From: Alteromonadaceae bacterium | GTDB taxonomy: Bacteria; Pseudomonadota; Gammaproteobacteria; Enterobacterales; Alteromonadaceae | Assembly (NCBI GenBank): GCA_002691625.1 | Contig: NZIK01000035.1 | Span: 8,809-52,397, forward strand | Direction of reading: 5' to 3' | Length of the DNA: 43,589 bases | Shown here: in pieces, positions 8,963-43,589 of the stretch | How the letters are laid out: each line of letters starts with the position of its first letter | How positions within the stretch are numbered: the first letter of the stretch is position 1 | Notes under the pieces: model-generated | What the model was told of the DNA's origin: nothing | Databases searched by the model: none | The model's input: only the letters and a program-made list of their open reading frames with translations | Made by a program: the position numbers and the translations under genes

Positions 8963-9105
8963 GAGTGCAATTTATAAAGCGTAAAAAGTGCCTTGGCCTG
9001 TTGGCCTGTCAGGTAGCAATTATTTCAGACCTGCAGTATGGGTAATGCTGACCACGCTACAGGTAACACCCGGTTTAGTATTTAGAAACATCAAAGGAGA
9101 GTCCC

Positions 9106-10680
9106 ATGAGCGATACGTTGATAGAACTATCGCGGTTACAATTTGCTTTAACAGCAATGTTCCACTTTATCTTTGTTCCGCTGACTCTTGGTCTGACGTT
9201 CCTGTTGGCCATTATGGAGTCGGTCTATGTGATGACGGGTAAAGAAATCTACAAACAAATGACCCAGTTTTGGGGCAAGTTGTTTGGGATTAACTTTGCT
9301 ATTGGCGTTGCAACCGGATTAACGATGGAGTTCCAGTTTGGTATGAACTGGTCTTACTATTCTCACTACGTGGGCGACATTTTTGGCGCTCCGTTGGCCA
9401 TTGAAGGGTTAATGGCGTTCTTTTTAGAATCGACCTTCGTGGGGCTGTTTTTTTTCGGCTGGGACAAATTGTCTAAAGTGAAGCACTTAATGGCAACCTG
9501 GCTGGTGGCCATTGGCTCGAACTTCTCAGCGCTATGGATTTTGATTGCCAACGGCTGGATGCAGTACCCGGTGGGGGCAAGTTTCAATACCGAGTCAATG
9601 CGGATGGAAATGACCAGTTTCAGCGAAGTGATTTTTAACCCGGTAGCCCAGGTTAAATTTGTCCACACTGTCTCTGCAGGCTATGTCACCGGTGCCATCT
9701 TTGTACTGGCGATTTCCAGTTACTATCTGCTCAAGCATAAACATATTGCCTTTGCCCGTCGCTCCTTTGCGATTGCAGCCAGCTTCGGCTTAGCGGCTAC
9801 CCTGTCGGTAATTGTTTTAGGTGACGAAAGCGGTTACGAGCTCGGCGATGTGCAAAAAGTCAAACTGGCGGCTGTGGAAGCTGAGTACGAAACTCATCCG
9901 GCACCGGCTGCTTTTACCTTGTTCGGCATTCCTAATGATGAAGAAGAAAAAATGGACTTCGCTATTCAGATCCCGTGGGCCATGGGGATTATTGCTACCC
10001 GTTCACTGGATGAAGAAGTGATGGGGATCAAGGATCTCAAAGAGATTCACCGGGTGCGCATTTTGTCTGGCGTACAGGCACAGAAGCAGTTGGAGAAAGT
10101 GAAAGACGGCACAGCAACGCCAGCAGAACTCGAGATGTTTGAGCGCAACAAAGACGACTTAGGCTATGCGTTGTTGCTGGAACCTTTCACTGACAACATC
10201 ACTCAGCCTACACCAGAAGCGCTGGAAAAAGCGGTGGATTACAGTATCCCACCGGTAGCACCACTGTTTTACTCTTTCCGCCTGATGGTTGTTGCGGGCT
10301 TTTTGATGCTGGCGCTGTTTATCGCGGCATTCTATTACAGTACTAAGCACCGCATCACCCAGCCCCGCTGGTTGCTGAAAGCGGCGGTCTGGTCGCTGCC
10401 ATTACCGTGGATTGCCTGTGAAGCCGGTTGGTTTGTGGCCGAGTATGGCCGTCAGCCCTGGTCTATCGCCGAAGTGTTACCAGTACACACCGCGGTGTCT
10501 AACCTGTCTGTTTCAGACGTAGTGACTACGCTGGTGGCTTATACCCTGTTCTACGCAACCATGTTTGTGATTGGCTTCTATCTGATGAAGAAATACGCCA
10601 AGAAAGGGCCGGTTCCACCGGAAGATAATAACAAACTGGATGATGCTATTGGCCTGGGTACTCAAGGAGCAAACGCATGA
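9106..10680 (+). CDS. cydA: Cytochrome bd ubiquinol oxidase subunit I
   Basis: Catalytic subunit of the bd-type terminal oxidase, which oxidises quinol and reduces oxygen to water in the inner membrane. The N-terminal haem ligand is His20 in FHFIFVPLT. The proton/haem segment IEGLMAFFLESTFVGLF and the GRQPW signature are intact. The quinol loop carries the KxxAxE motif (KLAAVEAEYETH), and its insertion after that point makes it the long, E. coli-like form. 524 residues is normal. Start follows AAAGGAGAG. First gene of cydABX-DC. bd oxidases are known to resist sulfide, unlike haem-copper oxidases, which fits placement beside sqr under a sigma-54 promoter. Confidence 0.97.
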   Translation: MSDTLIELSRLQFALTAMFHFIFVPLTLGLTFLLAIMESVYVMTGKEIYKQMTQFWGKLFGINFAIGVATGLTMEFQFGMNWSYYSHYVGDIFGAPLAIEGLMAFFLESTFVGLFFFGWDKLSKVKHLMATWLVAIGSNFSALWILIANGWMQYPVGASFNTESMRMEMTSFSEVIFNPVAQVKFVHTVSAGYVTGAIFVLAISSYYLLKHKHIAFARRSFAIAASFGLAATLSVIVLGDESGYELGDVQKVKLAAVEAEYETHPAPAAFTLFGIPNDEEEKMDFAIQIPWAMGIIATRSLDEEVMGIKDLKEIHRVRILSGVQAQKQLEKVKDGTATPAELEMFERNKDDLGYALLLEPFTDNITQPTPEALEKAVDYSIPPVAPLFYSFRLMVVAGFLMLALFIAAFYYSTKHRITQPRWLLKAAVWSLPLPWIACEAGWFVAEYGRQPWSIAEVLPVHTAVSNLSVSDVVTTLVAYTLFYATMFVIGFYLMKKYAKKGPVPPEDNNKLDDAIGLGTQGANA

Positions 10681-27814: not shown

Positions 27815-30325
27815 TCAGGAGCCAGGGCAGACGACAGGCGTTTCTACCCGGGTAAAGCGGATATCTGACAGTTTAAACTCGGTGGCATCCTCGGCAGAGA
27901 GTGCCATTGGCACATATATTTCACGCAGATTAACGCCCTTATCAACAAAGCAGCTCAGTGGAATAGCTACGCTCTGCCAGTTGTTATCAGCAGTGGTAAA
28001 GTCGTCCAGAGCTAGTTCGGCTTCGCAACCATCACCACAAGACATGGATACGGTCATGCCGGTTGAAGCTGAACGCTGAATATCAAAGGCCAGTACACCT
28101 GTTGGTACCGCGTAATCGAGTAAATCTTCCGGAAACGGCGAGAAGAAGCGAATGCTGTCTTCGTTGCTGCCAAAGGCGATTTGCAGTGTATCTTCCTGTA
28201 CATGGCGGTCGGCAGTACGGATGCTAAGGGTATTAACACTCAGTACGTTACTATTCATTGCGCCTTGCTCGCCAGCGCTGGTAGCGATAAGTGACCACGG
28301 CTGTTGTACGCTCTGCTGGAAGATAACCGCATCGCCGGCGGCGTTGGCAGCGCTGTTCACAGACTCGTCGAGTTGCGGCAGATCGGCGTTTTCACCGTAA
28401 CTCAGGCCGTAGTCGTAGGCAAATAGCGATTGCTTACCATCACCTTTATTAACCGGGTTCTGGAATGGGTCGGCAGGCCATGAGAACGACAGTTTACCGT
28501 GCATAGGGTAGTTAACCGAGCCGTCTGGTTTGCTGAACAATACGTCGGCTACACCGCCGCCTTCTGAGCCAGGTAACCAGGCAACCACAAAGGCATCTGA
28601 TGCGTTTAGTTCTGGCGTAACCCACAGCGGCCGACCGGTAATAAATACCGATACTACCGGGATACCCTGTGCTTTAAGGGATTTCAGCAGCGCCAGGTCC
28701 TGCTTGTCACCACGCTGATACTCCACATTAGCGATATCACCGTTACCTTCGGCATAGGGTGTTTCGCCAAATACCACAATCGCTACATCCGGCTTTTCTG
28801 TGAAGCTGCCATCTACGCTTAATTCAGCCTCACCACCGGCGGCTTCAACAACTTGCTCAATGCCTGTGTATACAGAGGTAGCCCCCGGGAAATCATTGTT
28901 TTCATTACCGGTGCCTTGCCAGGTAATGGTCCAGCCACCGGATTGCTTGCCAATATTGTGCGCGCCGTCACCGGCGACGAGTACCCGGCTATTAGGCGCA
29001 AGCGGTAACAGTTGTTGGTTATTTTTAAGCATAACCAGTGATTTACGAACGGCTTCTCGGGCAATTTTGCGATGCGCGTCTGCACCGATAACCGACATAT
29101 CGCCAGACAGGCTGCGATTAGCTGGTGAAGGCAGGTCAAATAACCCAACCCGTAACTTCACCCTCAGTACCCGGCTAACGGCGTCATCAAGACGTGACAT
29201 AGAGATTTCGCCACTCTTCACCTGGGCAATAAGGTTTTCCATCAAAGGCTTCCAGGTTGGGGTAGGCGCCATGTAAACATCCAGGCCAGCCAGTAATGCC
29301 TGCGGGCAGTTGTCGTTAGTACAGCCTGGGATTTGGCCATGGCCGTTCCAGTCTCCTACCACAAATCCATCAAAGCCCATTTTATCTTTGAGAACATCAG
29401 TAAGTAAGTATTTGCTACCGTGTATTTTTTCTCCGTGCCAGCTATTAAAAGACGCCATTACGGATTGAGAACCGGCATTTAAGCCGTGCACGTAGCCTTG
29501 CGCATGGATGTCGAACAGCTCTTTTTCGCTGGCCAGGTTGTCACCCTGGTCATCGCCCTTATCGGTTCCGCCATCGCCAACAAAGTGTTTAACGGTGGAA
29601 ATGACATGCTGGTCGTCGATATTGCCGTCGCTGATATCCCCTTGCAGGCCGGTAACTATTGCGCGTGCATACTCTCCCACTATCGCGGGATCTTCGGAAT
29701 AGCTTTCGTACGTGCGACCCCAGCGGTCATCACGGACAACCGCAACGGTCGGAGCAAAAATCCAGTCTATACCGGTGGCGCGCACTTCTTTAGCGGTGGC
29801 GGTAGCTATTTCTTCAATCAACGCCGGATCGCGCATGGCACCCAGGCCAATGTTGTGCGGAAACAGTGTGGCACCAATTACGTTATTGTGGCCGTGCACC
29901 GCGTCGGTACCCCACATGGTGGGGATACTGCTGCCGTCGAGTGAGTCATCTATGGATGCCTGGTACATGGCTTCGGCCAGGTCGATCCATTCCTGCGGCG
30001 TAGCATGTTTGTTTGCACCTGGGAAAGAGCCGCCACCATTAAGGTAAGAACCAAAACCATAGCGACGCATGTCTTCTACCGTTACATCGCGGATCTCGGG
30101 TTGGATAAGCTGAGCGACTTTTTGCTCTACCGTCATATCGGCCAATAACGCTTCAACCTTGGCTTCAACTGCTTGATTATTACTGATAGGCGATTGAATT
30201 TGCGGCCAGTAATCCGGAACAGTTACGGTATTGGCAGACTGGCTGTCAGTTTCTGATGTGCTGCAAGCGGTTAACACTGCAACCCCAATGGCTGCTGCAG
30301 CCACTGACAAAGTAGTTGATTTCAT
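27815..30325 (-). CDS. GH3 β-glucosidase / exo-β-glucanase lipoprotein
   Basis: An 836-residue glycoside hydrolase family 3 enzyme. A lipoprotein signal (VAVLTACS, Cys21) anchors it in the envelope. The GH3 N-terminal domain has WGTDAVHGHNNV, the KH(F) substrate motif TVKHFVGDGG and the nucleophile Asp325 in VVGDWNGHG, where most relatives have SDW. The GH3 C domain follows, and the last ~150 residues resemble the extra β-sandwich of marine ExoP-type enzymes. ATG 30325 is chosen over a longer frame because CCGGAGAG precedes it. It would release glucose from β-glucans or oligosaccharides in the periplasm, feeding the divergent GH1 and symporter genes. Confidence 0.92.
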   Translation of the reverse strand: MKSTTLSVAAAAIGVAVLTACSTSETDSQSANTVTVPDYWPQIQSPISNNQAVEAKVEALLADMTVEQKVAQLIQPEIRDVTVEDMRRYGFGSYLNGGGSFPGANKHATPQEWIDLAEAMYQASIDDSLDGSSIPTMWGTDAVHGHNNVIGATLFPHNIGLGAMRDPALIEEIATATAKEVRATGIDWIFAPTVAVVRDDRWGRTYESYSEDPAIVGEYARAIVTGLQGDISDGNIDDQHVISTVKHFVGDGGTDKGDDQGDNLASEKELFDIHAQGYVHGLNAGSQSVMASFNSWHGEKIHGSKYLLTDVLKDKMGFDGFVVGDWNGHGQIPGCTNDNCPQALLAGLDVYMAPTPTWKPLMENLIAQVKSGEISMSRLDDAVSRVLRVKLRVGLFDLPSPANRSLSGDMSVIGADAHRKIAREAVRKSLVMLKNNQQLLPLAPNSRVLVAGDGAHNIGKQSGGWTITWQGTGNENNDFPGATSVYTGIEQVVEAAGGEAELSVDGSFTEKPDVAIVVFGETPYAEGNGDIANVEYQRGDKQDLALLKSLKAQGIPVVSVFITGRPLWVTPELNASDAFVVAWLPGSEGGGVADVLFSKPDGSVNYPMHGKLSFSWPADPFQNPVNKGDGKQSLFAYDYGLSYGENADLPQLDESVNSAANAAGDAVIFQQSVQQPWSLIATSAGEQGAMNSNVLSVNTLSIRTADRHVQEDTLQIAFGSNEDSIRFFSPFPEDLLDYAVPTGVLAFDIQRSASTGMTVSMSCGDGCEAELALDDFTTADNNWQSVAIPLSCFVDKGVNLREIYVPMALSAEDATEFKLSDIRFTRVETPVVCPGS

Positions 30326-30428
30326 GATTACTCTCCGGATTATAACCCCTGCGAATGCCAAAGCACTGCGAAACCAATGAACGAATGTTAATAATTTGTT
30401 GTGAGAGTATATGTATAAATTTTAAAAA

Positions 30429-30442
30429 TGCAAGCGCTTACA
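30429..30442. promoter_or_regulatory. LacI-family operator, GH3 side
   Basis: TGCAAGCGCTTACA fits the LacI/GalR-family pattern TGnAArCGnTTnCA with central CG. It lies about 100 bp upstream of the GH3 ATG on the minus strand. The obvious binder is the LacI-type protein encoded at 33676. Confidence 0.7.
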
Positions 30443-30585
30443 TTTTTGTGTGAGTAAATTGTTCGGGAAATGCTTTTCAGGAACAGTTAATTTGGTTAAA
30501 TAACCCGTATTGTCGAAAATAGTGGCCTGGCTTTGATTCATTAACCCTGATTAACGGTTGTTCCGCACAGTTGCTGATGATTTTA

Positions 30586-30599
30586 TGAAAGCGTTTACA
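30586..30599. promoter_or_regulatory. LacI-family operator, middle copy
   Basis: TGAAAGCGTTTACA is the second copy of the operator pattern, 157 bp from the first and 277 bp from the third. Distances of this size would allow DNA looping between copies. Confidence 0.65.
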
Positions 30600-30862
30600 T
30601 TTTTGTGGTTGCCACTTCTGCCAGCTGGCATACTCACTGCTGATACTGGCTGCTTGCTGCGTCGCCGCACATATTTCACAACGGATGCCGCCACAATAGG
30701 CCGTAATAGCGACTGGAATATAGAATATGGGGTTCATCCGTAATCTGTACTCTAACATTGCTGTGCCTGGAAACAATTACGATGAGTGTTGCAGTGACTA
30801 TCTTTATTCAGCGAGGGCGAGCCAATGCGGTGAATTGAAATGTAAATAACTTGTATAAAAAA

Positions 30863-30876
30863 TGAAGGCGCTTACA
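30863..30876. promoter_or_regulatory. LacI-family operator, GH1 side
   Basis: TGAAGGCGCTTACA matches the pattern with one departure (G for A at position five). It lies about 90 bp upstream of the GH1 start, where it could overlap that promoter. Confidence 0.65.
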
Positions 30877-30962
30877 ATTAGGGTCTGATTTTTGATGAGT
30901 CTATTCTGCAAGAGGTGGCTGTACGCTGACGGAAATCATTGCGTTAGGTACGTAAATGTAAG

Positions 30963-32297
30963 ATGAGTAAAGGTTTTTCAATCAAAAATGTGCTCGGTGA
31001 ACCGAACTTTACAATTGGAGTGGCTACGTCGTCGTTTCAGATCGAAGGGGCCAGCGAATTGCGAGAGCCCTGCATATGGGACACATTTTGCCAGGTACCC
31101 GGCGCAGTAAAGGATAACTCCGATGGCCGGATGGCCTGCGATCATTATCATTTGTGGCAGCAGGACATTGCGCTGATTGATGAGCTGGGTTTTGATGCCT
31201 ACCGGTTTTCCGTTTGTTGGCCAAGGATCATTTGTGCCGACGGCAGTGTTAATCAGGAAGGATTGGCTTTTTATCTTAAAATACTTGATGAACTTCAAAG
31301 GCGTGGCCTCAAGGCCTATGTGACGCTTTATCACTGGGAGTTGCCACAATTTCTGGAAGATAAGGGCGGCTGGCTTAACCGTGCTACAGCCTATGCATTT
31401 GCTGAATACAGCCGTATTGTAGCCACGGCATTTGGCAATAAAGTAAGTGCTTACACTACGCTTAATGAGCCTTATTGCAGTGCATTCCTTGGTTACGAAA
31501 TAGGCGTTCATGCGCCGGGTAAAATTGGTAAGCAATACGGTAAAAAGGCCGCTCATCACCTTCTGCTTGCTCATGGGCTCGCAATGCAGGTGCTTAATGA
31601 AGTCTGTCCGGCTATTCCAAGCGGCCTGGTACTTAATTTTACTACTTATTATCCGGCGACTGAAAGTGAGGCTGATAAGCAGGCTACCTTGCTGGCTAAA
31701 GCCCATTTTAACGACTGGTATGTGAGCCCTGCCTTAACGGGTAACTATCCACCGCTGCTGAACACATTACCCGAAGCTGAAAAGCCATTAATTGAGCCGG
31801 GTGACATGGAAATAATTGCCGCGCCCATGGCGTATCTTGGGGTTAACTATTATACCCGGGCTCTGGTGCAGGCCCGCCCCGGAGGCCACTTTGAGATCCT
31901 GCCGCCTGATGACAACGTACCAGTTACTGCTATGAATTGGGAAATTTATCCGCAAGGCTTGTGTGATTTACTGCTCCAGCTTCATAGTGAATATGATTTG
32001 CCGCCACTTTTTATTACCGAGAACGGTATGGCCGAAGATGATGTGGTACAAGATGGCCAGGTGCATGATAAAGTGCGGATAGATTATTTACAGGACCACA
32101 TGCAGGCTGTTGCTGAAGCAATGGAAAAAGGCGTGGATATCAGAGGTTATTTTGTGTGGAGTCTGTTGGATAATTTCGAATGGGCGGAAGGGTATCTTAA
32201 GCGGTTTGGCATTGTGCATGTGGATTTTGCAACCCAACAACGGTTACCTAAACAAAGTGCCCTGAAACTAAGTGAATGGCTTAAACAACGCCGCTAA
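30963..32297 (+). CDS. GH1 β-glucosidase
   Basis: A 444-residue family 1 glycoside hydrolase without a signal peptide, hence cytoplasmic. The acid/base Glu169 lies in TTLNEP and the nucleophile Glu353 in FITENG. The substrate-site stretches GVATSSFQIEGA and YHWELPQ are present. It would split imported cellobiose or other β-glucosides to glucose. First gene of a GH1 - symporter - lacI run, 24 bp before the transporter. Repression through the operator at 30863 is expected. Confidence 0.94.
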   Translation: MSKGFSIKNVLGEPNFTIGVATSSFQIEGASELREPCIWDTFCQVPGAVKDNSDGRMACDHYHLWQQDIALIDELGFDAYRFSVCWPRIICADGSVNQEGLAFYLKILDELQRRGLKAYVTLYHWELPQFLEDKGGWLNRATAYAFAEYSRIVATAFGNKVSAYTTLNEPYCSAFLGYEIGVHAPGKIGKQYGKKAAHHLLLAHGLAMQVLNEVCPAIPSGLVLNFTTYYPATESEADKQATLLAKAHFNDWYVSPALTGNYPPLLNTLPEAEKPLIEPGDMEIIAAPMAYLGVNYYTRALVQARPGGHFEILPPDDNVPVTAMNWEIYPQGLCDLLLQLHSEYDLPPLFITENGMAEDDVVQDGQVHDKVRIDYLQDHMQAVAEAMEKGVDIRGYFVWSLLDNFEWAEGYLKRFGIVHVDFATQQRLPKQSALKLSEWLKQRR

Positions 32298-32321
32298 ACT
32301 CCATAGCTGTCTGGACATATA

Positions 32322-33665
32322 ATGATTAGTGTAAAAGAAAAAGTTGCATACGGGCTTGGCGATACAGCAAGCAACTTTGTCTTTCAGACTGTCATTTTGT
32401 TTCTTACTTTCTACTACACCGATGTGGTTGGGCTCAATCCCGCAACCGTTGGCAGTATCTTTCTACTGGTACGATTGATTGATGCGGTAACCGATCCTTT
32501 GATGGGTTCCCTGGCAGATAAAACCCGCACCCGTTGGGGCGCTTACCGGCCCTATTTGCTGTGGATGGCTCTGCCATTTGCACTTATCAGCGTACTCGCC
32601 TTTACCACCCCCGACACGGATTACAACGGCAAACTGATTTACGCCATTGCCAGCTATGTGCTGTTAATGCTGATGTATACCGCGATCAATATCCCCTATT
32701 CCGCGCTAGGCGGTGTAATAACGGCAAGCCCACTGGAGCGGGTGTCGGTGCAGTCATATCGCTTTGTGTTTGCCATGCTGGGCGGACTTATTGTGTCGCT
32801 TTGCACGCTACCAATGGTGAATTGGTTTGGCGCCGGCAACGATGCGCGTGGCTATCAGCTCACGATGCTGACCATGGGAGTGGTTGGGATGGTGTTATTT
32901 CTTTTGTGTTTCGCCGGCACCAGAGAGAGAGTGTTACCGGCTGATGGGCCGCCCTCTCCGGTGCGGGAGCAGTTAAAGGCAGTATGGCATAACGACCAGT
33001 GCCGTGTTTTATGTATTGTCAGCATGGTACTGCTTACCGGAATCGTATTGCGCAATGCGCTGGCGATTTATTACGTGAAATATGTGCTGCAACGCCCCGA
33101 CGATGTCACGCTGTTTGTGTCGCTTGCGATGGTGGGTGGCATTCTGGGCGCAGCATCGGCTCATCTATTTACGCGACGCTGCGATAAGATACTGTTATAC
33201 AAAGTATTACAGCTTTCCTGTGCGGGATTATGTATTGCCAATTATTTCCTGCCTGCAACCATGTGGGTAGGGGCTTTGGTGATTCACTTTTTGTGGGGAT
33301 TCGTGCTGCAAATGACCTCGCCATTATTGTGGTCAAAAATGGGCGATGTGACCGATTACGGCGAGCTGCAAACAGGTACACGACTAACCGCAATGACCTT
33401 CTCCACCATAGTGTTTTTTATTAAATTAGGTATCGCCCTTGGCAGTGCTTTGGCGGGTTGGGCGCTGGCCTATTACGGCTACCAGGCAAACAATATTGAT
33501 GAGCGCGTAAGTCACGGTATAACTTTGTCTTTTTGTTTAATACCGGCTGCTATGTCTTTAGTGGTAGTGTTGTTGATGCGCTGGTATAAACTGGACAGCC
33601 AGCGAGTGGACAAGATTCATAACGCCCTTATAACAGCACGGCAACCCCAGCAGGAAAACGTATAG
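32322..33665 (+). CDS. GPH-family sugar:cation symporter
   Basis: A 447-residue major-facilitator-type carrier with about 12 membrane segments. The start VKEKVAYGLGDTASNFVFQT and the motif DAVTDPLMGSLADKTRTRWGAYRPYLL are characteristic of glycoside-pentoside-hexuronide symporters (MelB-like). It should import β-glucosides or cello-oligosaccharides with sodium or protons for GH1. It lies between GH1 and the LacI regulator, 10 bp before the latter, in one transcription unit. Confidence 0.9.
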   Translation: MISVKEKVAYGLGDTASNFVFQTVILFLTFYYTDVVGLNPATVGSIFLLVRLIDAVTDPLMGSLADKTRTRWGAYRPYLLWMALPFALISVLAFTTPDTDYNGKLIYAIASYVLLMLMYTAINIPYSALGGVITASPLERVSVQSYRFVFAMLGGLIVSLCTLPMVNWFGAGNDARGYQLTMLTMGVVGMVLFLLCFAGTRERVLPADGPPSPVREQLKAVWHNDQCRVLCIVSMVLLTGIVLRNALAIYYVKYVLQRPDDVTLFVSLAMVGGILGAASAHLFTRRCDKILLYKVLQLSCAGLCIANYFLPATMWVGALVIHFLWGFVLQMTSPLLWSKMGDVTDYGELQTGTRLTAMTFSTIVFFIKLGIALGSALAGWALAYYGYQANNIDERVSHGITLSFCLIPAAMSLVVVLLMRWYKLDSQRVDKIHNALITARQPQQENV

Positions 33666-33675
33666 CGAAGTTAAT

Positions 33676-34677
33676 ATGGTCACAATAAAACAAGTTAGCG
33701 AGAAAGCCGGTGTATCGTCTGCCACCGTCTCCAGGGTTATCAACAATACCGGCACGGTAAAAGAGAAAACCCGTGAACTGGTTATGACGGCCATGGCGGA
33801 GCTTGGTTACCGGCATAATGTTGTGGCAGCTTCACTGGCATCCAATAAAACTCATACCATTGGGTACGTTGTACCGGAACTGCATGGTTCTTTCTTTGGG
33901 GCGATGATGGGCGGTACTGAGCAGGCCTTACGGCAGGCCAAAAAACACATGCTGATTGCTACCGGCCACTCCGATGCACAGATTGAAAAAGAACAAATTG
34001 ATGCGTTGCTGAGCCGCCGTTGCGATGCTTTGATATTGCATGTGGAAGCCGTTAGTGACGAGTATCTGGTGAGCCTAGTCCATCAGGGCGTTGAATTAGT
34101 GGTGGTAAACCGCTTTATTGGAGAAATTGGCGATAATTGCATTAGTCTCGATAACGTCAAGGGTGGGTACCTTGCTTCTCGCCACCTCCTCGACATTGGC
34201 CACACGAAAATTGCCTATATTGCCGGGTCGCTGTTTAAAGCCGATGGTAAAAACCGTTTAACTGGTCACCAACAGGCCCTTGCAGACATGGGGGTTGAAT
34301 ATACTGACAAGCTTACTTACGAAGGCAACTTCCAGGCAAAATCTGGTACTGAGGGGATTCGAGCATTGGTTGCTCGCGGTGCAAAATTTACGGCGGTGGC
34401 CTGTGCAAACGATGAAATGGCCTCAGGCGCAATGATTGCGTTGCGCGAGCTTGGTCGCAGAGTGCCGGAAGACGTATCGGTGATCGGGTTTGATAACGTT
34501 GATTTTGCCAGCTACCTTTCGCCGGGGCTAACCACCATAGATTATCCGGTACAAAAAATCGGTAGTATGGCGGCTCACTGGGTGCTTGAGCGGGTATACG
34601 GTCATACCCGCCATGAATACCAGCATATTCTGAGCCCGCGACTGATCCTCAGAGGTACGACGAGCAGTCCTGAGTAG
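33676..34677 (+). CDS. LacI-family regulator of β-glucoside use
   Basis: 333 residues. The N-terminal helix-turn-helix reads [20 protein letters not shown], followed by the hinge region, then a periplasmic-binding-protein-like sugar sensor ending [21 protein letters not shown], standard for the family. It sits in the operon it probably controls, and three matching operators lie upstream of GH3 and GH1. A repressor released by a glucoside is the usual behaviour. The operator assignment is inference from motif and position. Confidence 0.92.
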
Positions 34678-38091: not shown

Positions 38092-38119
38092 TATTTTTTA
38101 ATAGGTGGTAAACTTAACA

Positions 38120-38536
38120 ATGCTTCAGGTTATACCCGTTGCAGCGCAAGCTGGCATCAGTGGCTTCGAGTCGCCGGCGGCTGAATATAAACAGCTGGCG
38201 CTGGATCTCGACGAGCTACTGATAGAACATCCTACCGCAACGTTTATTGGTCAGGCTCAGGGCGACTCTATGACAGGCGTAGGCATATTCGACGGCGATC
38301 TGCTGATTGTCGATCGCGCGGCGCATCCCACTTCACTGGATGTGATTGTGGCCAATTTAAAAGGTAACTTTGTTTGTAAACTTTACGATCGTAAAGCACA
38401 GGTACTGCTATCTCCAGGCCTTGATGACAAGTCCTATGCGCTGGGTGATAGTGATTTGTTTGAGGTTGAAGGTATAGTAGTGCGTTCTGTGCGTATGCAT
38501 CGCTATGTCAGATGGTTAAGTCAATGTATGCGTTAG
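38120..38536 (+). CDS. umuD: UmuD-like SOS peptidase (S24) subunit of DNA polymerase V
   Basis: A 138-residue LexA-fold protein that cleaves itself on RecA filaments to give the active partner of UmuC. The catalytic dyad is Ser50 (GDSM) and Lys87; their 37-residue spacing equals Ser60/Lys97 of E. coli. By that alignment the scissile bond is Ser14-Gly15 (SGFESPAAEY), where E. coli has Cys-Gly; an Ala-Gly pair lies three residues earlier. Start ATG 38120 has AGGTGG at 11 nt; GTG 38105 has no ribosome site. It overlaps umuC by 13 bp or more. Confidence 0.92.
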   Translation: MLQVIPVAAQAGISGFESPAAEYKQLALDLDELLIEHPTATFIGQAQGDSMTGVGIFDGDLLIVDRAAHPTSLDVIVANLKGNFVCKLYDRKAQVLLSPGLDDKSYALGDSDLFEVEGIVVRSVRMHRYVRWLSQCMR

Positions 38537-39780
38537 TTGATGCTAATAGTTTTTATGCTTCGGCAGAAAAAGTCTTCGATCCGGCCATTCGTCAGCGACC
38601 GGTTGTTGTACTGACCAACAACGATGGGTGTATTTGTGCTCTTTGTGAGCACGCCAAGCAATTGGGCGTCGAAAAATTTGGCCCCTACTACAAGGTAAAA
38701 AAACTGCTGGCGCAGCACAATGCGGTGATTCGGTCTTCTAACTATGAACTTTACGATTACTTGTCGAATAAAATGATGCAGGTTGTAGGGCGGTACGCTC
38801 CTGACCAGCATATCTATTCCATAGACGAGTGCTTCTTATTTTTTGATAGCTGGCGGCCTGCTGAAAGCTGGCGTGCTTATGCTATGCGCATACAGAGTGA
38901 TGTGTGGCAGCAACTCAGATTGCCGGTAGGTGTTGGCTTAGGCGCAACGCCCACTCTGGCGAAGGTTGCCAGCTTTGCAGGTAAAAAGCTGGGCGATAAG
39001 TCTGGCATTGCCGTGCTCGATACGCCGGAAGCTTGTAGGCATGTGCTACTTCAAATGGATGTCCAAGATGTTTGGGGAGTGGGTAAACGCATAGCTGCCC
39101 GGTTGCGTGAGCAAGGTATAATAAACGCCTGGCAGCTGGCACAATTTGATCCTAAAGCGCTGCGTAAACAGTTTTCAGTAGAACTGGAGAGAACGGTAAG
39201 AGAGCTCAACGGTACCGTGTGTATAAAGTGGGATGAGGAAAGAGCGAAGAAGCAGCAAATATACTCAACGCGGGCGTTCGGGCAACCGGTTACCAGCGAA
39301 CAGTTTCTGCGTGAGAGCCTCTGCTGGCATGCTGAAAAAGTGGCTGAGAAATTACGCCGGCAGCAGAGTAAAGCCTGGCTACTCACTTTATTTACTCACG
39401 CCAATCCCTTTGCGGATACAGAACAATACCACAAGGCGATTCAGCATCGCTTTGCGCAGCCAACTAACGATACCAGAGCGCTGGTTCAGGCTGCGTCTAA
39501 TGCCAGTCACGCGCTCTATAAAGCCAATATCAAATTACACAAGTGTGGCGTTGGCGCGATAGAGATTATCGAAACTGCCCATGAGCAGAGCGATATGTTC
39601 GCCGAACTGGCCCACAACCCAAAACTCATGCAATGCATGGATGCCATAAACAGCCGCTACGGCAGTCAGACTATAGGCGCAGCCGCAAAAGGAATACACC
39701 CGGAATGGGGGATGAAAAGAGAACACCTGTCACCCCAATACACGACTAACTGGCGGCATTTGCCTAAGGTTGTGTGTTAG
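38524..39780 (+). CDS. umuC: UmuC-like Y-family translesion DNA polymerase
   Basis: About 418 residues beginning MYALVDANSFYASAEKVF, with the metal-binding Asp of the first motif, then VVLTNNDGCICALCEHAKQLGV and the catalytic YSIDECFLFF. The family pattern of palm/fingers, thumb and little finger is complete. With UmuD' it forms polymerase V for mutagenic bypass. ATG 38512 is also in frame; 38524 matches the usual family start and gives a 13-bp overlap with umuD. The 3' end overlaps the convergent peptide gene by 17 bp. Confidence 0.93.
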   Translation: MYALVDANSFYASAEKVFDPAIRQRPVVVLTNNDGCICALCEHAKQLGVEKFGPYYKVKKLLAQHNAVIRSSNYELYDYLSNKMMQVVGRYAPDQHIYSIDECFLFFDSWRPAESWRAYAMRIQSDVWQQLRLPVGVGLGATPTLAKVASFAGKKLGDKSGIAVLDTPEACRHVLLQMDVQDVWGVGKRIAARLREQGIINAWQLAQFDPKALRKQFSVELERTVRELNGTVCIKWDEERAKKQQIYSTRAFGQPVTSEQFLRESLCWHAEKVAEKLRRQQSKAWLLTLFTHANPFADTEQYHKAIQHRFAQPTNDTRALVQAASNASHALYKANIKLHKCGVGAIEIIETAHEQSDMFAELAHNPKLMQCMDAINSRYGSQTIGAAAKGIHPEWGMKREHLSPQYTTNWRHLPKVVC

Positions 39781-39946
39781 CAGAAATAACCAGGTCCAGG
39801 TCTGGTTTTTCTACTTTATCACTCAGGCCACAGGGTAATTTTTCTAAGCTACTCCAATTGGCAGGTAAAGCCGCGCCACCACCCTGTACCAAGAGACAGT
39901 CCTGTTCTGAAAGCTCGAAAATGGTTGGTTTTTGTACTATATTCAC
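39764..39946 (-). CDS. Putative double-glycine-leader secreted peptide (bacteriocin/RiPP-like precursor)
   Basis: A 60-residue peptide whose first 23 residues fit the leader of peptides cut and exported by C39-peptidase ABC transporters: FELSEQDCLLVQGG has Leu at -12, Ser at -11, an acidic residue at -8, Val at -4 and Gly-Gly at -2/-1. The predicted 37-residue core (starting GAALPANWSS) is acidic, has one Cys (39) and two internal prolines, and matches no family I recognise. The start is GTG, with GAGGA 7 nt upstream, which supports real translation. It is divergent from the large sensor gene, 70 bp away, and its 3' end overlaps umuC by 17 bp. No processing transporter or modifying enzyme is visible in the window. 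Confidence 0.6.
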   Translation of the reverse strand: MNIVQKPTIFELSEQDCLLVQGGGAALPANWSSLEKLPCGLSDKVEKPDLDLVISANTQP

Positions 39947-40016
39947 AATGAAGTCCTCGTTTGTTGTAGGGAGTTACATGAAGTAAATCTAGGGAAAGAG
40001 ACACGGAGATGGGCGA

Positions 40017-43000
40017 ATGTTTAGGACAAACAATCTTAAAATAAGGACTTGTTGTGGCGTTGTCTTTTTTTTGATCCTCTGGAGTTTCAATGCTTACCCT
40101 GTTGAGCCAGCTTGGGTCGGTAAAACGAAATTCAATGGTGACTCTAGTGGCGTAGTTCGCGCTATTATTACGCACGATAATCATCTGTATCTCGGCGCTG
40201 AGAACGGATTCCTAGACCTTGTTGGAGAAACCTCAACTTTCTATTCCCCTGAAAACTCGGTTCTGTCTGATGGTTATATATCTGATCTGACCTTAGATAA
40301 TGAAGGAAATATCTGGATCTCGCAGTTTGGCTCAGGTCTGTTCATCTTTAATCCTGAAGATCGGTCCTTAAGCACATTTCCTTTACCACCTGAACTCACA
40401 AAGTCGTCCTGGGCGGTAGCTGTCGCTAAGCCATTCCTGGGAATTAGTCTGATTAATCAGATTCTCATCCATAACACTGAAACGGGTTTGAATACCGTAA
40501 TAGATAGGAATCATAAGTCAGGCAGATTAAGACGAATCTACGGCGCTGAATATTTACCTGATATTGGTTTTGTATTTCCTGAGGCGGGCGGGCTTGTTGT
40601 TCACGAACCATTCTTAAACGAGACCTCTTATTTTTCTATCGATAAGTACTTTCCCATGCTTAGCTCGGTTACATCGGTTTCAGTGCACGACGGCCATCTG
40701 TTGGTTGGAGGCCAGGGAGGTGTTTACAAGTGGGATCTTGCCAGTACTGCAATTTATTATCCTTTTGCAGACCCGCGTTATAGCCTGAATGATGTCGACC
40801 AGATATTTGTGAGCTCTGCCGGGCAAATATGGATTGCGGCGACTGGTCTGTACTATTTAGACAAAGAAAATAATGTCATTTCAGAGCTAAAACAAGGACA
40901 GCCCAAATATGCGTTAGAACAAATCAAAACAATTGGTGCCATTTCGGAACTAGAGAACGGGACAATCATTGTTGGTTCGAGTCAACTCGGCCTGTTGACA
41001 ATCAACGCTAATGATAACGGGATAAAGTATCTTCACGAAACAGACTTTCCCTATCGAAAAGATATTGAGTGGTTGAAGTCCGTGACTAACTCATCTGCAT
41101 TAGTCGGGGCGTCTGACCAACAGTTTAAGCTTGATTTACTGAGTGGAAAACTGGTTGAGTCACCACTCTCTGACTTTAAATCAGCACCTATTGCTATACC
41201 CGATGGCTCACTATTCTCTACTGATAAATGTGTATTGATGAAAAGTGATGATGTTGATTTTGAAGTCGTTACACGTGTAACGGACCCCGAAAATATCTGT
41301 GGAAACCTTAAACCCATTGCTTTTCAGAATGCCGGTAATTTTTATGTTTACTACGAGGTTGAGTCGCATGCAGGTTTTGCTCAACTAAGCATGAATGAGT
41401 TAAAACATTACATGAATGCACCCAAGGGCATTCGGTTTATAAGTACCGAGAGAAATAATGCACTCGTAGTATTAGATAAGAAAAACAGGCTTTATTCAAT
41501 GGAAGAGCTGGGTGTTTGGATAAAACACGAAGCAGTCAATATGCAGAGATTCTTTGTTTATTGCATGTATTCACACCAAACAAATGACATCATTTATTTA
41601 TGTACGTCGGGAGGCGGCCTGAAGCAATATGATTTGTCTTCAAGACAGTTCAAAGATGCATTCACGGAGCTAAATCTGCCGCGTTTTATTCGCGATGGTT
41701 TTGTTGATGGGGACGGTCATCACTGGCTTGCGACAAATAAGGGACTGTTTTTTACAAACGAAGGGTCGGCTTACCAGTTTGATAGTAGTGATGGCGTTAT
41801 AGATACAGATTTTAATCATCAGGGGTTAATGCCCATTACTGATTCTCAGTTCGTGCTCGTTGGCGACCAGATGAGTTATCTTGTCGACACAGGTAAGTTG
41901 GTAGCATACGTCCAGGGGCGAAAAAAGTACGAGTCTGTTGCAAGTGTTGTCAGCCTTCAACTGATTAACGATGATACCAAGGTAACGACTTACCCGAAAA
42001 GTTTACTTTCTGAAAATATAGCCTCTGCCCCCGATGAAATGATTTTTGAATTTGCCTCGGCAGACTATGTTTACCCGCATTTGCACAAGCTTGAATACCG
42101 TCTTAAAGGGTTTCATGAAGACTGGCAGGAGTTGCCGGCTAATATGGGTACAGTGGCTTACTCAGGCCTGAGATTTGGCGCTTTCGATTTCCAGGTTCGG
42201 GTTGTGGATAGTAAAAGTCAGGCAGTACAGCCCATTAGTCGTTATCCTTTCAATATTGCCCGGCCCTGGTGGTTATCCTGGCAGGCATACTTACTGTATC
42301 TGGCGGTTTTAGCAATGACCATCTGGCTTGTAGTAGTACTGATAAAACGGCATATGGCCGAAAAAAGCCGGGTCTTGGCGGCGGTTATTGAGCAGAAGCA
42401 GTCGGCGTTACTGGAGAGCAACCGTTCAATTACCGAATTATTAAACAAAAAAGAAAAAATCTTCAGTAATCTTGCCAATGAAATAAAGACACCGGTAATG
42501 CAAATCTTAAATCCGCTCACAGAATTACGGGCAAAGCCATTAACAGCGGATATCCGGGGGAAGCTCGATCTGGTTTACGATAACGCGGGCCGCCTCAGAG
42601 TACTCACCGACCAACTTGCGGCGGTGGAGCGGATTGAACATATTAGCGGGCAGGTGCTGCAGCGATACAATATCGGCAATACATTAGCCTTCCTGGTTGA
42701 AACCTGGCGTCCGGAAGCCTTAAAAAAACAACTTATACTCAGCTGTGATTGTGAATTTAGAGCGCCAGTGTTGCTAATTCAGGACTCGCTTGAAGCGTTA
42801 CTCAACCATTTACTGATTAATGCAGTTTCTTATACTCAGCCTGGCGGACAAGTGCGCATTAAAGCAATACACCAGGCTGACAAGCTAGTGGTGTGCATTA
42901 AAGACAACGGCCCGGGAATGGACAAACCGCACCTGGAATTTGTTACATCCCGGTTTGCCAAGGGCTCCAATTATAATGGCAACACTAAGACTGGCATTGG

Positions 43001-43589
43001 CCTGAACCTCGCGAACGCACTGGCGCTGGCCAATGACGGCTGGTTAGAATTAAAAAGTGAACCGGGTATGGGTACAGAGGTTTCGGTGCATTTGCCTTTT
43101 AACCCTGCGCTGACAGTGGAAAATAGGGAAGCTCTTACCGTTGATGATGAAACACAGCGGCAGGTAGCAGAACAATCGGCTCTGTATAGGGAAAGCAATT
43201 TACCGGTAGTTCTCGTGATCGAACGTAGTCATGAGGCCTGCGAATATATCATTAATTTACTGGGCGAAAGCTTTAATTGTTACTCAACCCAAAGCGGTAC
43301 GCAGGCGCTGGAAATCATCCCCGTTTTGCAGCCTGATGTGATAGTCACTGAGTTAAACATTACCGATATTTCCGGTGTGATCTTTACTGAAAAGCTCAGG
43401 GAGAAGGATGTATTTGCAGATGTACCGGTAATGATACTCACTGCCGACAGTGATTACTCCTCAAAACTCAGTAGTTTTAAGGCGTCAGTCAATGACTACC
43501 TGGTTAAGCCGGTAGAACGTGAAGAACTGATATCAAGAATTGAAAGTAATCTCACCTACTCTCGGCTTGCCCATCGTCATAACGTTAGC
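40017..43589 (+). CDS. Propeller/Y_Y_Y hybrid sensor, probable pseudokinase (runs off window)
   Basis: The open frame covers 1191 codons and has no stop before the window edge. A signal segment (CCGVVFFLILWSFNAYP) precedes a ~700-residue periplasmic β-propeller with two-component-propeller repeats such as ISDLTLDNEGNIWISQFGSG. A Y_Y_Y-type domain follows (about 675-745; LEYRLKGFHEDWQELP), then a membrane helix (about 755-780). The kinase motif reads FSNLANEIKTPV, so the phosphoacceptor His is Asn821. The ATPase domain keeps its N and G boxes (HLLINAVSYT, DNGPGM, GIGLNL). The receiver has Glu1112 for the acceptor Asp and Glu-Arg (1069-1070) for the acidic pair, but keeps Lys1164. ATG 40017 has CGGAG 8 nt upstream. 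An AraC-type output may follow outside the window. The propeller half looks more AT-rich than neighbouring genes. Confidence 0.88.
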   Translation, partial: MFRTNNLKIRTCCGVVFFLILWSFNAYPVEPAWVGKTKFNGDSSGVVRAIITHDNHLYLGAENGFLDLVGETSTFYSPENSVLSDGYISDLTLDNEGNIWISQFGSGLFIFNPEDRSLSTFPLPPELTKSSWAVAVAKPFLGISLINQILIHNTETGLNTVIDRNHKSGRLRRIYGAEYLPDIGFVFPEAGGLVVHEPFLNETSYFSIDKYFPMLSSVTSVSVHDGHLLVGGQGGVYKWDLASTAIYYPFADPRYSLNDVDQIFVSSAGQIWIAATGLYYLDKENNVISELKQGQPKYALEQIKTIGAISELENGTIIVGSSQLGLLTINANDNGIKYLHETDFPYRKDIEWLKSVTNSSALVGASDQQFKLDLLSGKLVESPLSDFKSAPIAIPDGSLFSTDKCVLMKSDDVDFEVVTRVTDPENICGNLKPIAFQNAGNFYVYYEVESHAGFAQLSMNELKHYMNAPKGIRFISTERNNALVVLDKKNRLYSMEELGVWIKHEAVNMQRFFVYCMYSHQTNDIIYLCTSGGGLKQYDLSSRQFKDAFTELNLPRFIRDGFVDGDGHHWLATNKGLFFTNEGSAYQFDSSDGVIDTDFNHQGLMPITDSQFVLVGDQMSYLVDTGKLVAYVQGRKKYESVASVVSLQLINDDTKVTTYPKSLLSENIASAPDEMIFEFASADYVYPHLHKLEYRLKGFHEDWQELPANMGTVAYSGLRFGAFDFQVRVVDSKSQAVQPISRYPFNIARPWWLSWQAYLLYLAVLAMTIWLVVVLIKRHMAEKSRVLAAVIEQKQSALLESNRSITELLNKKEKIFSNLANEIKTPVMQILNPLTELRAKPLTADIRGKLDLVYDNAGRLRVLTDQLAAVERIEHISGQVLQRYNIGNTLAFLVETWRPEALKKQLILSCDCEFRAPVLLIQDSLEALLNHLLINAVSYTQPGGQVRIKAIHQADKLVVCIKDNGPGMDKPHLEFVTSRFAKGSNYNGNTKTGIGLNLANALALANDGWLELKSEPGMGTEVSVHLPFNPALTVENREALTVDDETQRQVAEQSALYRESNLPVVLVIERSHEACEYIINLLGESFNCYSTQSGTQALEIIPVLQPDVIVTELNITDISGVIFTEKLREKDVFADVPVMILTADSDYSSKLSSFKASVNDYLVKPVEREELISRIESNLTYSRLAHRHNVS

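Follow-up and report, generated by a model that had tools for sequence, protein, structure and literature searches.

We analysed a 43,589-nt stretch of DNA (hereafter, the window) from a metagenome-assembled genome (MAG) of the Alteromonas lineage, in which a small gene for a peptide with a double-glycine (GG) leader stands divergently beside a long hybrid sensor with a propeller ectodomain. Across the genus the two genes are found together, and the peptide and the propeller are swapped jointly between related species, which suggests a private cell-to-cell signal. We consider it probable that the peptide is exported, polymorphic and sensed by its own propeller, as in a pherotype system, and that the subclade of the window signals without a canonical phosphorelay. 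The MAG is 87% complete and the window contig ends within the sensor gene; the complete locus is present on a contig of a second strain in this MAG (C15, locus L004), 92% identical to the window.

The peptide gene and its divergent sensor

The peptide gene (39764..39946, minus strand) encodes 60 residues from a GTG start, with leader codons at 39878-39946, core codons at 39767-39877 and the stop codon at 39764-39766; the leader ends in ...ELSEQDCLLVQGG. A Shine-Dalgarno (SD) match, GAGGA, lies 7 nt 5' of the GTG (39954..39958, minus), and a divergent region of 70 bp (39947..40016) separates the peptide start from that of the sensor, whose frame opens at 40017. A sequence-only reading of the window had described this GG-leader frame with its ribosome site, divergent to the sensor; both descriptions hold, and the gene is borne out by its relatives. 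A peptide profile (A4) built from 22 peptides detected it in 38 of 59 genus genomes, and the second strain and Aestuariibacter sp. GS-14 bring the set to 40 loci. The frame is open in all 40 (50-65 aa), with cores of 27-42 residues, 37 in the window. An SD match of at least 4 is present at 30/40 loci, against 6% of shuffles. The pooled within-allele ratio of nonsynonymous to synonymous substitution rates (dN/dS), calculated from pairs that are not independent, is 0.21 for the leader, 0.33 for the core, 0.17 for the propeller and 0.10 for the kinase part. The open frames, the dN/dS values below 1 and the excess of SD matches over shuffles together show that the peptide is a real gene. Broken frames in relatives, or codon changes free of protein-level constraint, had been named beforehand as outcomes that would tell against the pairing idea; every frame is open and the codons are constrained, so the idea survives.

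Proline makes up 15% of the last 20 residues of the cores and 0.4% of the leaders. The window peptide has no Pfam or NCBIfam match, and the 22 profile members gave only stray single-member matches to these databases, the best being Dmrt1 (0.00098) and LsbB (0.012). An earlier single-sequence search had matched 29/59 genomes at E ≤ 1, of which 14, the window's own included, were then accepted as real. One weak match from that search (G055:C4) was discarded on reading, and the remainder were superseded by the profile search, from which one extra match (G001:C13, 9.6e-5) was discarded because it contains stops.

The sensor (40017..43589, plus strand) is open for 1191 aa up to the contig end, and the complete C15 copy has 1326 aa. 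After a signal sequence, the propeller part of the ectodomain (40101..42022, plus, placed by eye) is followed by a Y_Y_Y domain (42069..42257, plus; a match over cut-off, G000:C26:50877-51065) and by an HATPase_c domain (42780..43103, plus; coordinates transferred from L004 residues 922-1029). In the C15 copy HisKA, HATPase, receiver and AraC-type helix-turn-helix (HTH) lie on a single chain, the HTH falling beyond the window end; HATPase, receiver and HTH are all above their Pfam cut-offs, and HisKA (23.2 of 26.9 bits) and Y_Y_Y (26.0 of 26.6 bits) fall just below theirs. An AlphaFold model of the ectodomain (predicted local distance difference test 87.9, predicted template modelling score 0.83) found its best Foldseek matches in 4a2l, 4a2m, 3v9f and 3ott, with template modelling (TM) scores of 0.61-0.72 to the BT4663 and BT3049 ectodomains and a less close 0.43 to BT4673. 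Profile matches of the ectodomain were 4a2l, 3ott, 3va6 and 3v9f.

Among BT4663-type features, the propeller and Y_Y_Y ectodomain is thus present, and the phospho-accepting His and Asp are absent from the window sensor: the His box reads LANEIKTP, with an Asn codon at 42477..42479 (plus) in place of His, and a Glu codon at 43350..43352 (plus) replaces the receiver Asp. This double loss, which the sequence-only reading had noticed, is confirmed. The set of 37 aligned sensors excludes G047 (1095 aa), the frameshifted G021 and G010, whose sensor is cut by a contig end. Of these 37, 16 have another residue for His (N 8, S 3, K 2, Q 2, A 1), 11 have Glu for Asp, and 11 show both replacements. Since His is retained in 16/21 clade B rows and in 12/16 sister-genus sensors (by pattern; one has Ala and three lack a pattern match, one of these a 682-aa fragment), the double loss seems to have occurred late, within the window subclade. 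An open peptide frame is kept beside the frameshifted sensor of G021 (L179) and the short 1095-aa sensor of G047 (L192); these two genomes are possible signal-only producers.

At 38 of the 40 peptide loci the divergent neighbour is a long sensor frame, the exceptions being G010, where the contig ends within the sensor, and the frameshifted G021. Conversely, a propeller profile (A5) located the sensor in 55/59 genus genomes (E ≤ 1e-20), and 53 of these 55 have a divergent GG-leader frame, 38 by profile and 15 by eye. A fixed rule, which recovers 35/38 known pairs, finds a diverged GG frame in 14 of the 17 sensor genomes lacking a profile-detected peptide, and reading by eye adds G028. In a family sample the sensor occurs in 29/295 genomes and 6/52 genera (E ≤ 1e-25); of the 16 sensor genomes outside the genus, the rule finds a GG frame in 13 and reading by eye in 14, which represent four of the five sister genera. 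Profile A4 matches 9/295 genomes of that sample, all of its own genus, and in an order sample of 394 genomes the eight with the sensor (E ≤ 1e-20) all belong to this family. Controls yielded few such frames: 12/242 at other long frames of the same loci (Fisher p 1.2e-13), 1/31 at outgroup hybrid sensors (42 of 58 loci retrieved, 31 scorable), and 1/15 at other Y_Y_Y sensors from four of the same genomes (15 of the 17 Y_Y_Y matches other than the sensor itself, without G017:C14 and G000:C67). The outer neighbour of the peptide varies, and includes umuC-like, EamA-like transporter and 147-aa genes, among others (names by eye). A search beside orthologous sensors, which the sequence-only reading had proposed, therefore returned a GG-leader frame in nearly every genus genome with a sensor and beside 14/16 sister-genus sensors. 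The partnership, first inferred from position, gains support from this pairing with changing outer neighbours, from co-exchange and from the presence of an exporter in the genome.

Exchange of peptide and propeller alleles between species

Sliding identity, domain identity tables and base-level edges revealed swaps in which the flank (umuC or other) and the signalling half are near-identical between two loci and the peptide core, intergenic region and propeller drop. With one genome per species, swaps are seen between species only. The clade A exchange cassette corresponds to 39782..42022 of the window and comprises the peptide gene minus its last codons, the intergenic region, the signal sequence and the propellers; its edges were mapped on L004/L053 and window/L051 and placed in the window relative to the sensor ATG. 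Between L004 and L053, DNA identity is 98.4% in the flank, 48.0% in the core, 78.3% in the leader, 56.3% in the intergenic region, 48.2% in the propeller and 99.1% from Y_Y_Y onward; the low block starts 2 nt after the stop codon of umuC and ends on the right around sensor residue 669, by the low-confidence pre-Y_Y_Y linker of the model. Between the window and A. alba, the corresponding values are 97.8, 47.0, 78.3, 53.5, 48.3 and 97.4%. Taken together, three clade A pairs have propellers at 48-49% DNA identity (35-37% protein identity) versus flanks at 97.6-98.4% and 96.9-99.1% from Y_Y_Y onward. Background identity of the window to four of these genomes is ~90% over 19.5 kb.

The swap is also seen between isolates, which rules out MAG chimerism as its source. 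A. oceani and A. alba share 98.5% identity in umuC, 48.5% in the propeller, 90.4-92.5% from Y_Y_Y to receiver and 86.6% in the HTH part. In clade B, the isolates A. marina and A. abrolhosensis share 92.3% in the flank, 51.7% in the core, 82.6% in the leader, 39.7% in the intergenic region, 47.3% in the propeller and 88.1% from Y_Y_Y onward, with 92-99% beyond the low block (past +2300). This pair and Alteromonas IB21/A. gracilis together have peptides at 41-52% and propellers at 46-47%. The clade B low block extends to ~+2330/+2360, with its edge near the membrane helix (by eye), and therefore Y_Y_Y travels with the propeller there. In five swap pairs the leader is conserved (78-86% DNA identity) and the core is not (41-52%). 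Same-allele pairs (window/L004 and G037/G049) share 92-97% across peptide and propeller. A. alba/UBA2620 shows a single short low stretch (1910-2000), and the more distant pairs G001/G040 and G011/G042, whose identity is low along large parts of the locus, are little informative.

Trees of the propeller and kinase parts point the same way. With 29/37 peptides labelled by motif-defined class and eight unlabelled, the peptide class changes four times on the propeller tree, the minimum for five classes, versus eight times on the kinase tree. Peptide class and propeller clade correspond in 24/24 rows. The kinase tree also holds five concordant and no discordant independent contrasts on starred branches, and kinase data reject the A1 class as a single clade (p 3.6e-8).

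Probable export and signalling, and competing explanations

The window genome has one C39 match, a 723-aa C39-peptidase ATP-binding cassette (ABC) transporter, accompanied by an HlyD adaptor; we take the AECG motif at its start to be the catalytic Cys motif. C39 peptidase matches occur in 58/59 genus genomes and 16/16 sister genomes, and G002, the sole genus genome without one, also lacks a detected peptide. The sequence-only reading had proposed looking for such an exporter to the right of the contig end: transporter and adaptor do exist in the genome, but on another contig, and none was recognised among the C15 frames. No GG peptide was found beside the window-genome exporter, either by pattern in L138-L143 or on reading two gaps of L138. 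On the minus strand of L138 (~9000-9250), the C39-ABC gene is followed by a small frame that resembles a LuxR-type HTH (by eye) and completes an HlyD/C39/LuxR-like set.

In eight genomes of sister genus g10, pair and exporter share a contig and lie ~14-45 kb apart. We did not use this proximity as linkage: in L268 and L270 housekeeping-type genes stand between, and the exporter has a small peptide of its own. That exporter-side peptide (L268:2518-2703, L270:1280-1462, and L271) differs, ending TTMAIGEEGGSFGNW or STLAIGEEGGGFWY, and an uncharacterised gene of ~310-340 aa stands beside it in L268 and L270.

In the mechanism we favour, the precursor would lose its leader by a cut at the GG motif and leave the cell through the unlinked C39-ABC transporter and HlyD adaptor. 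The released core, Pro-rich near its C terminus, would be the ligand, recognised by the propellers of the sensor encoded divergently beside it. From there the signal would travel, presumably inwards, by way of Y_Y_Y and the membrane helix and reach the parts in the cytoplasm: kinase-like, receiver-like and AraC DNA-binding. Because close relatives carry different peptide and propeller alleles on a shared signalling half, each allele group may respond to its own peptide. Since both phosphotransfer residues are replaced, output in the window subclade cannot follow the usual His-Asp relay; it likely runs through a switch of the AraC domain that is conformational and may depend on ATP, and the shared divergent promoter region is probably among the targets. 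A shared operator in that region was rejected, since the best inverted repeats are no commoner than in shuffles (arm of at least 6: 6/36 loci vs 283/1800). A GCTC-N4-GAGC palindrome between peptide and sensor recurs only in part of clade B (L173-L196).

Several observations weigh against this mechanism. The exporter is unlinked to the pair in the window genome, and in G041, which has the pair, the C39 match is only weak and falls in a 350-aa frame. No GG frame was found beside the sensors of G002 and G051 in the genus or of G069 in a sister genus, nor beside that of sister-genus G074, where the contig begins 288 bp before the sensor. The 24/24 agreement uses propeller clades read off an earlier tree. 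The motif classes were tightened after a first, looser coding, under which the propeller tree needed 7 changes and the kinase tree 12 when unclassed peptides were set aside, and 11 versus 16 with them. A sign test on the five independent pairs gives a p of only 0.0625, B2 as a single clade is not rejected on kinase data (p 0.106), and the partial rank correlation of core and propeller given kinase is weak (0.14 over 666 pairs, reached by 6/2000 permutations). A peptide released beyond the outer membrane also needs a route back, because sensors of this class have their ectodomain in the periplasm (4a2l title). Finally, with only ~70 bp between them, peptide and propeller travel in a single recombination tract, so that their co-exchange is by itself no proof of contact; this linkage is the main reason why we do not place more confidence in the mechanism.

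The strongest alternative, which we nevertheless regard as unlikely, is that the sensor responds to another ligand, such as a fragment of polysaccharide, by switching on a bacteriocin- or microcin-like peptide, with arms-race and niche differences driving joint diversification. That the closest matches of the ectodomain are BT4663, a heparin sensor, and further hybrid sensors of Bacteroides would fit, as would the frequency of microcins among Gram-negative GG-leader peptides (general background; see also the excerpt of PMC9746304). Yet such an effector poorly explains why the core diverges with the propeller and not with the signalling half, and no immunity-like gene, a feature of class II microcins, was recognised by eye beside the peptide in the ORF (open reading frame) lists, those of the window and C15 included, in which small unknown frames cannot be excluded.

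Hitchhiking, in which the propeller diversifies independently and the peptide gene is a passenger in the exchanged DNA, seems very improbable to us. The closeness of the two starts speaks for it, and low identity within the block would be expected to hamper recombination there. A passenger, however, should not stay beside one sensor lineage in five genera while the outer neighbours vary; the leader is conserved and the core is not in five swap pairs, and the peptide is under constraint of its own, as the dN/dS values indicate. Least probable of all is an unexported peptide that works in the cell or periplasm, either as an accessory subunit of its sensor or as an inhibitor, its GG motif being a relic: the unlinked exporter, the periplasmic sensor domain and the leaders among the 40 loci that end in AG or GS rather than GG would suit it, but a GG-type leader pattern is kept in 14/17 highly diverged peptides, C39 matches are nearly universal (G041 weakly), and the one genus genome without them has no detected peptide.

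Locus setting and relation to known systems

The peptide gene adjoins a umuDC-like pair (38105-39780, named by eye), and the 3' ends of the umuC-like and peptide genes overlap by 17 bp. The sequence-only reading had found no polysaccharide genes adjacent to the sensor; this stands for the immediate neighbourhood, but a GH3/GH1/MFS/LacI-like cluster (27815-34677, names read off translations) lies ~5 kb away. The MAG contains two strains, C15 duplicating the right part of the window at ~92%, and past the end of its sensor gene C15 matches A. alba at 98% identity. About 1.3 kb upstream of the sensor, A. alba strain 190 (L051:1-1800) has unrelated sequence in place of the umuC 5' part, which may be an insertion, a rearrangement or an assembly edge; this loss of homology lies outside the swap. 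A ~100-bp repeat (L004:18150-18248) is found at the ends of many contigs in this set of genomes, where it may cause assemblies to break.

Self/non-self groups defined by polymorphic peptide signals are known chiefly from Gram-positives, where ComC carries a GG leader and ComD is a multi-helix membrane receptor with a separate response regulator and working His-Asp chemistry. The locus resembles ComQXPA of Bacillus and ComC-ComD of streptococci in its variable core, variable N-terminal half of the receptor, conserved kinase half and allele groups. As in ComC-ComD, a GG-leader precursor adjoins a putative receptor gene, and peptide and sensing domain are exchanged jointly as alleles, here between species. 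ComX variability is highest at the C terminus and the N-terminal domain of ComP is substantially variable; ComP, a Gram-positive protein, has a multi-helix membrane domain, a separate response regulator (ComA) and working His-Asp chemistry (excerpt of PMC4008528). By contrast, the sensor described here is a Gram-negative propeller hybrid and not a multi-helix receptor, and no linked processing enzyme was recognised in the window locus. The locus thus appears to work like polymorphic Gram-positive pheromone-receptor loci and, because its receptor is a propeller hybrid, is not a member of those families.

BT4663 has a one-chain layout, and the BT4663-type hybrid systems of Bacteroides (4a2l, 3v9f, 3ott) share both this layout and the ectodomain fold with our sensor. 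BT4663 senses heparin/heparan sulphate (4a2l title). The present locus differs in the GG-leader peptide encoded beside the sensor and in the loss of the phosphotransfer residues in the window subclade. RaxX of Xanthomonas has a GG-type leader and a C39 exporter, and we know of no polymorphic bacterial receptor pair for it. It too derives from a 60-residue precursor in a Gram-negative, and it is tyrosine-sulphated and known through a rice receptor (excerpt of PMC6637879). Class II microcins also combine a GG leader with C39/HlyD export (general background and the excerpt of PMC9746304); the present system differs in its dedicated divergent sensor and, in the window genome, in an exporter that is not linked to the peptide gene. 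Among the matches listed from the open PubMed Central (PMC) literature, no title or abstract start describes this peptide-sensor pairing.

For the family as a whole, we lean, somewhat more guardedly, towards a Gram-negative pherotype system with many allele groups, in which an exported Pro-rich peptide would be read by a propeller of carbohydrate-sensor fold, alleles would be exchanged between Alteromonas species on a common signalling half, and one subclade would signal without phosphotransfer. Should this hold, one of the major genera of marine copiotrophs uses a peptide language of its own, and propeller hybrids, regarded as sugar sensors, can serve as peptide receptors. The natural allele swaps provide ready-made pairs for specificity tests.

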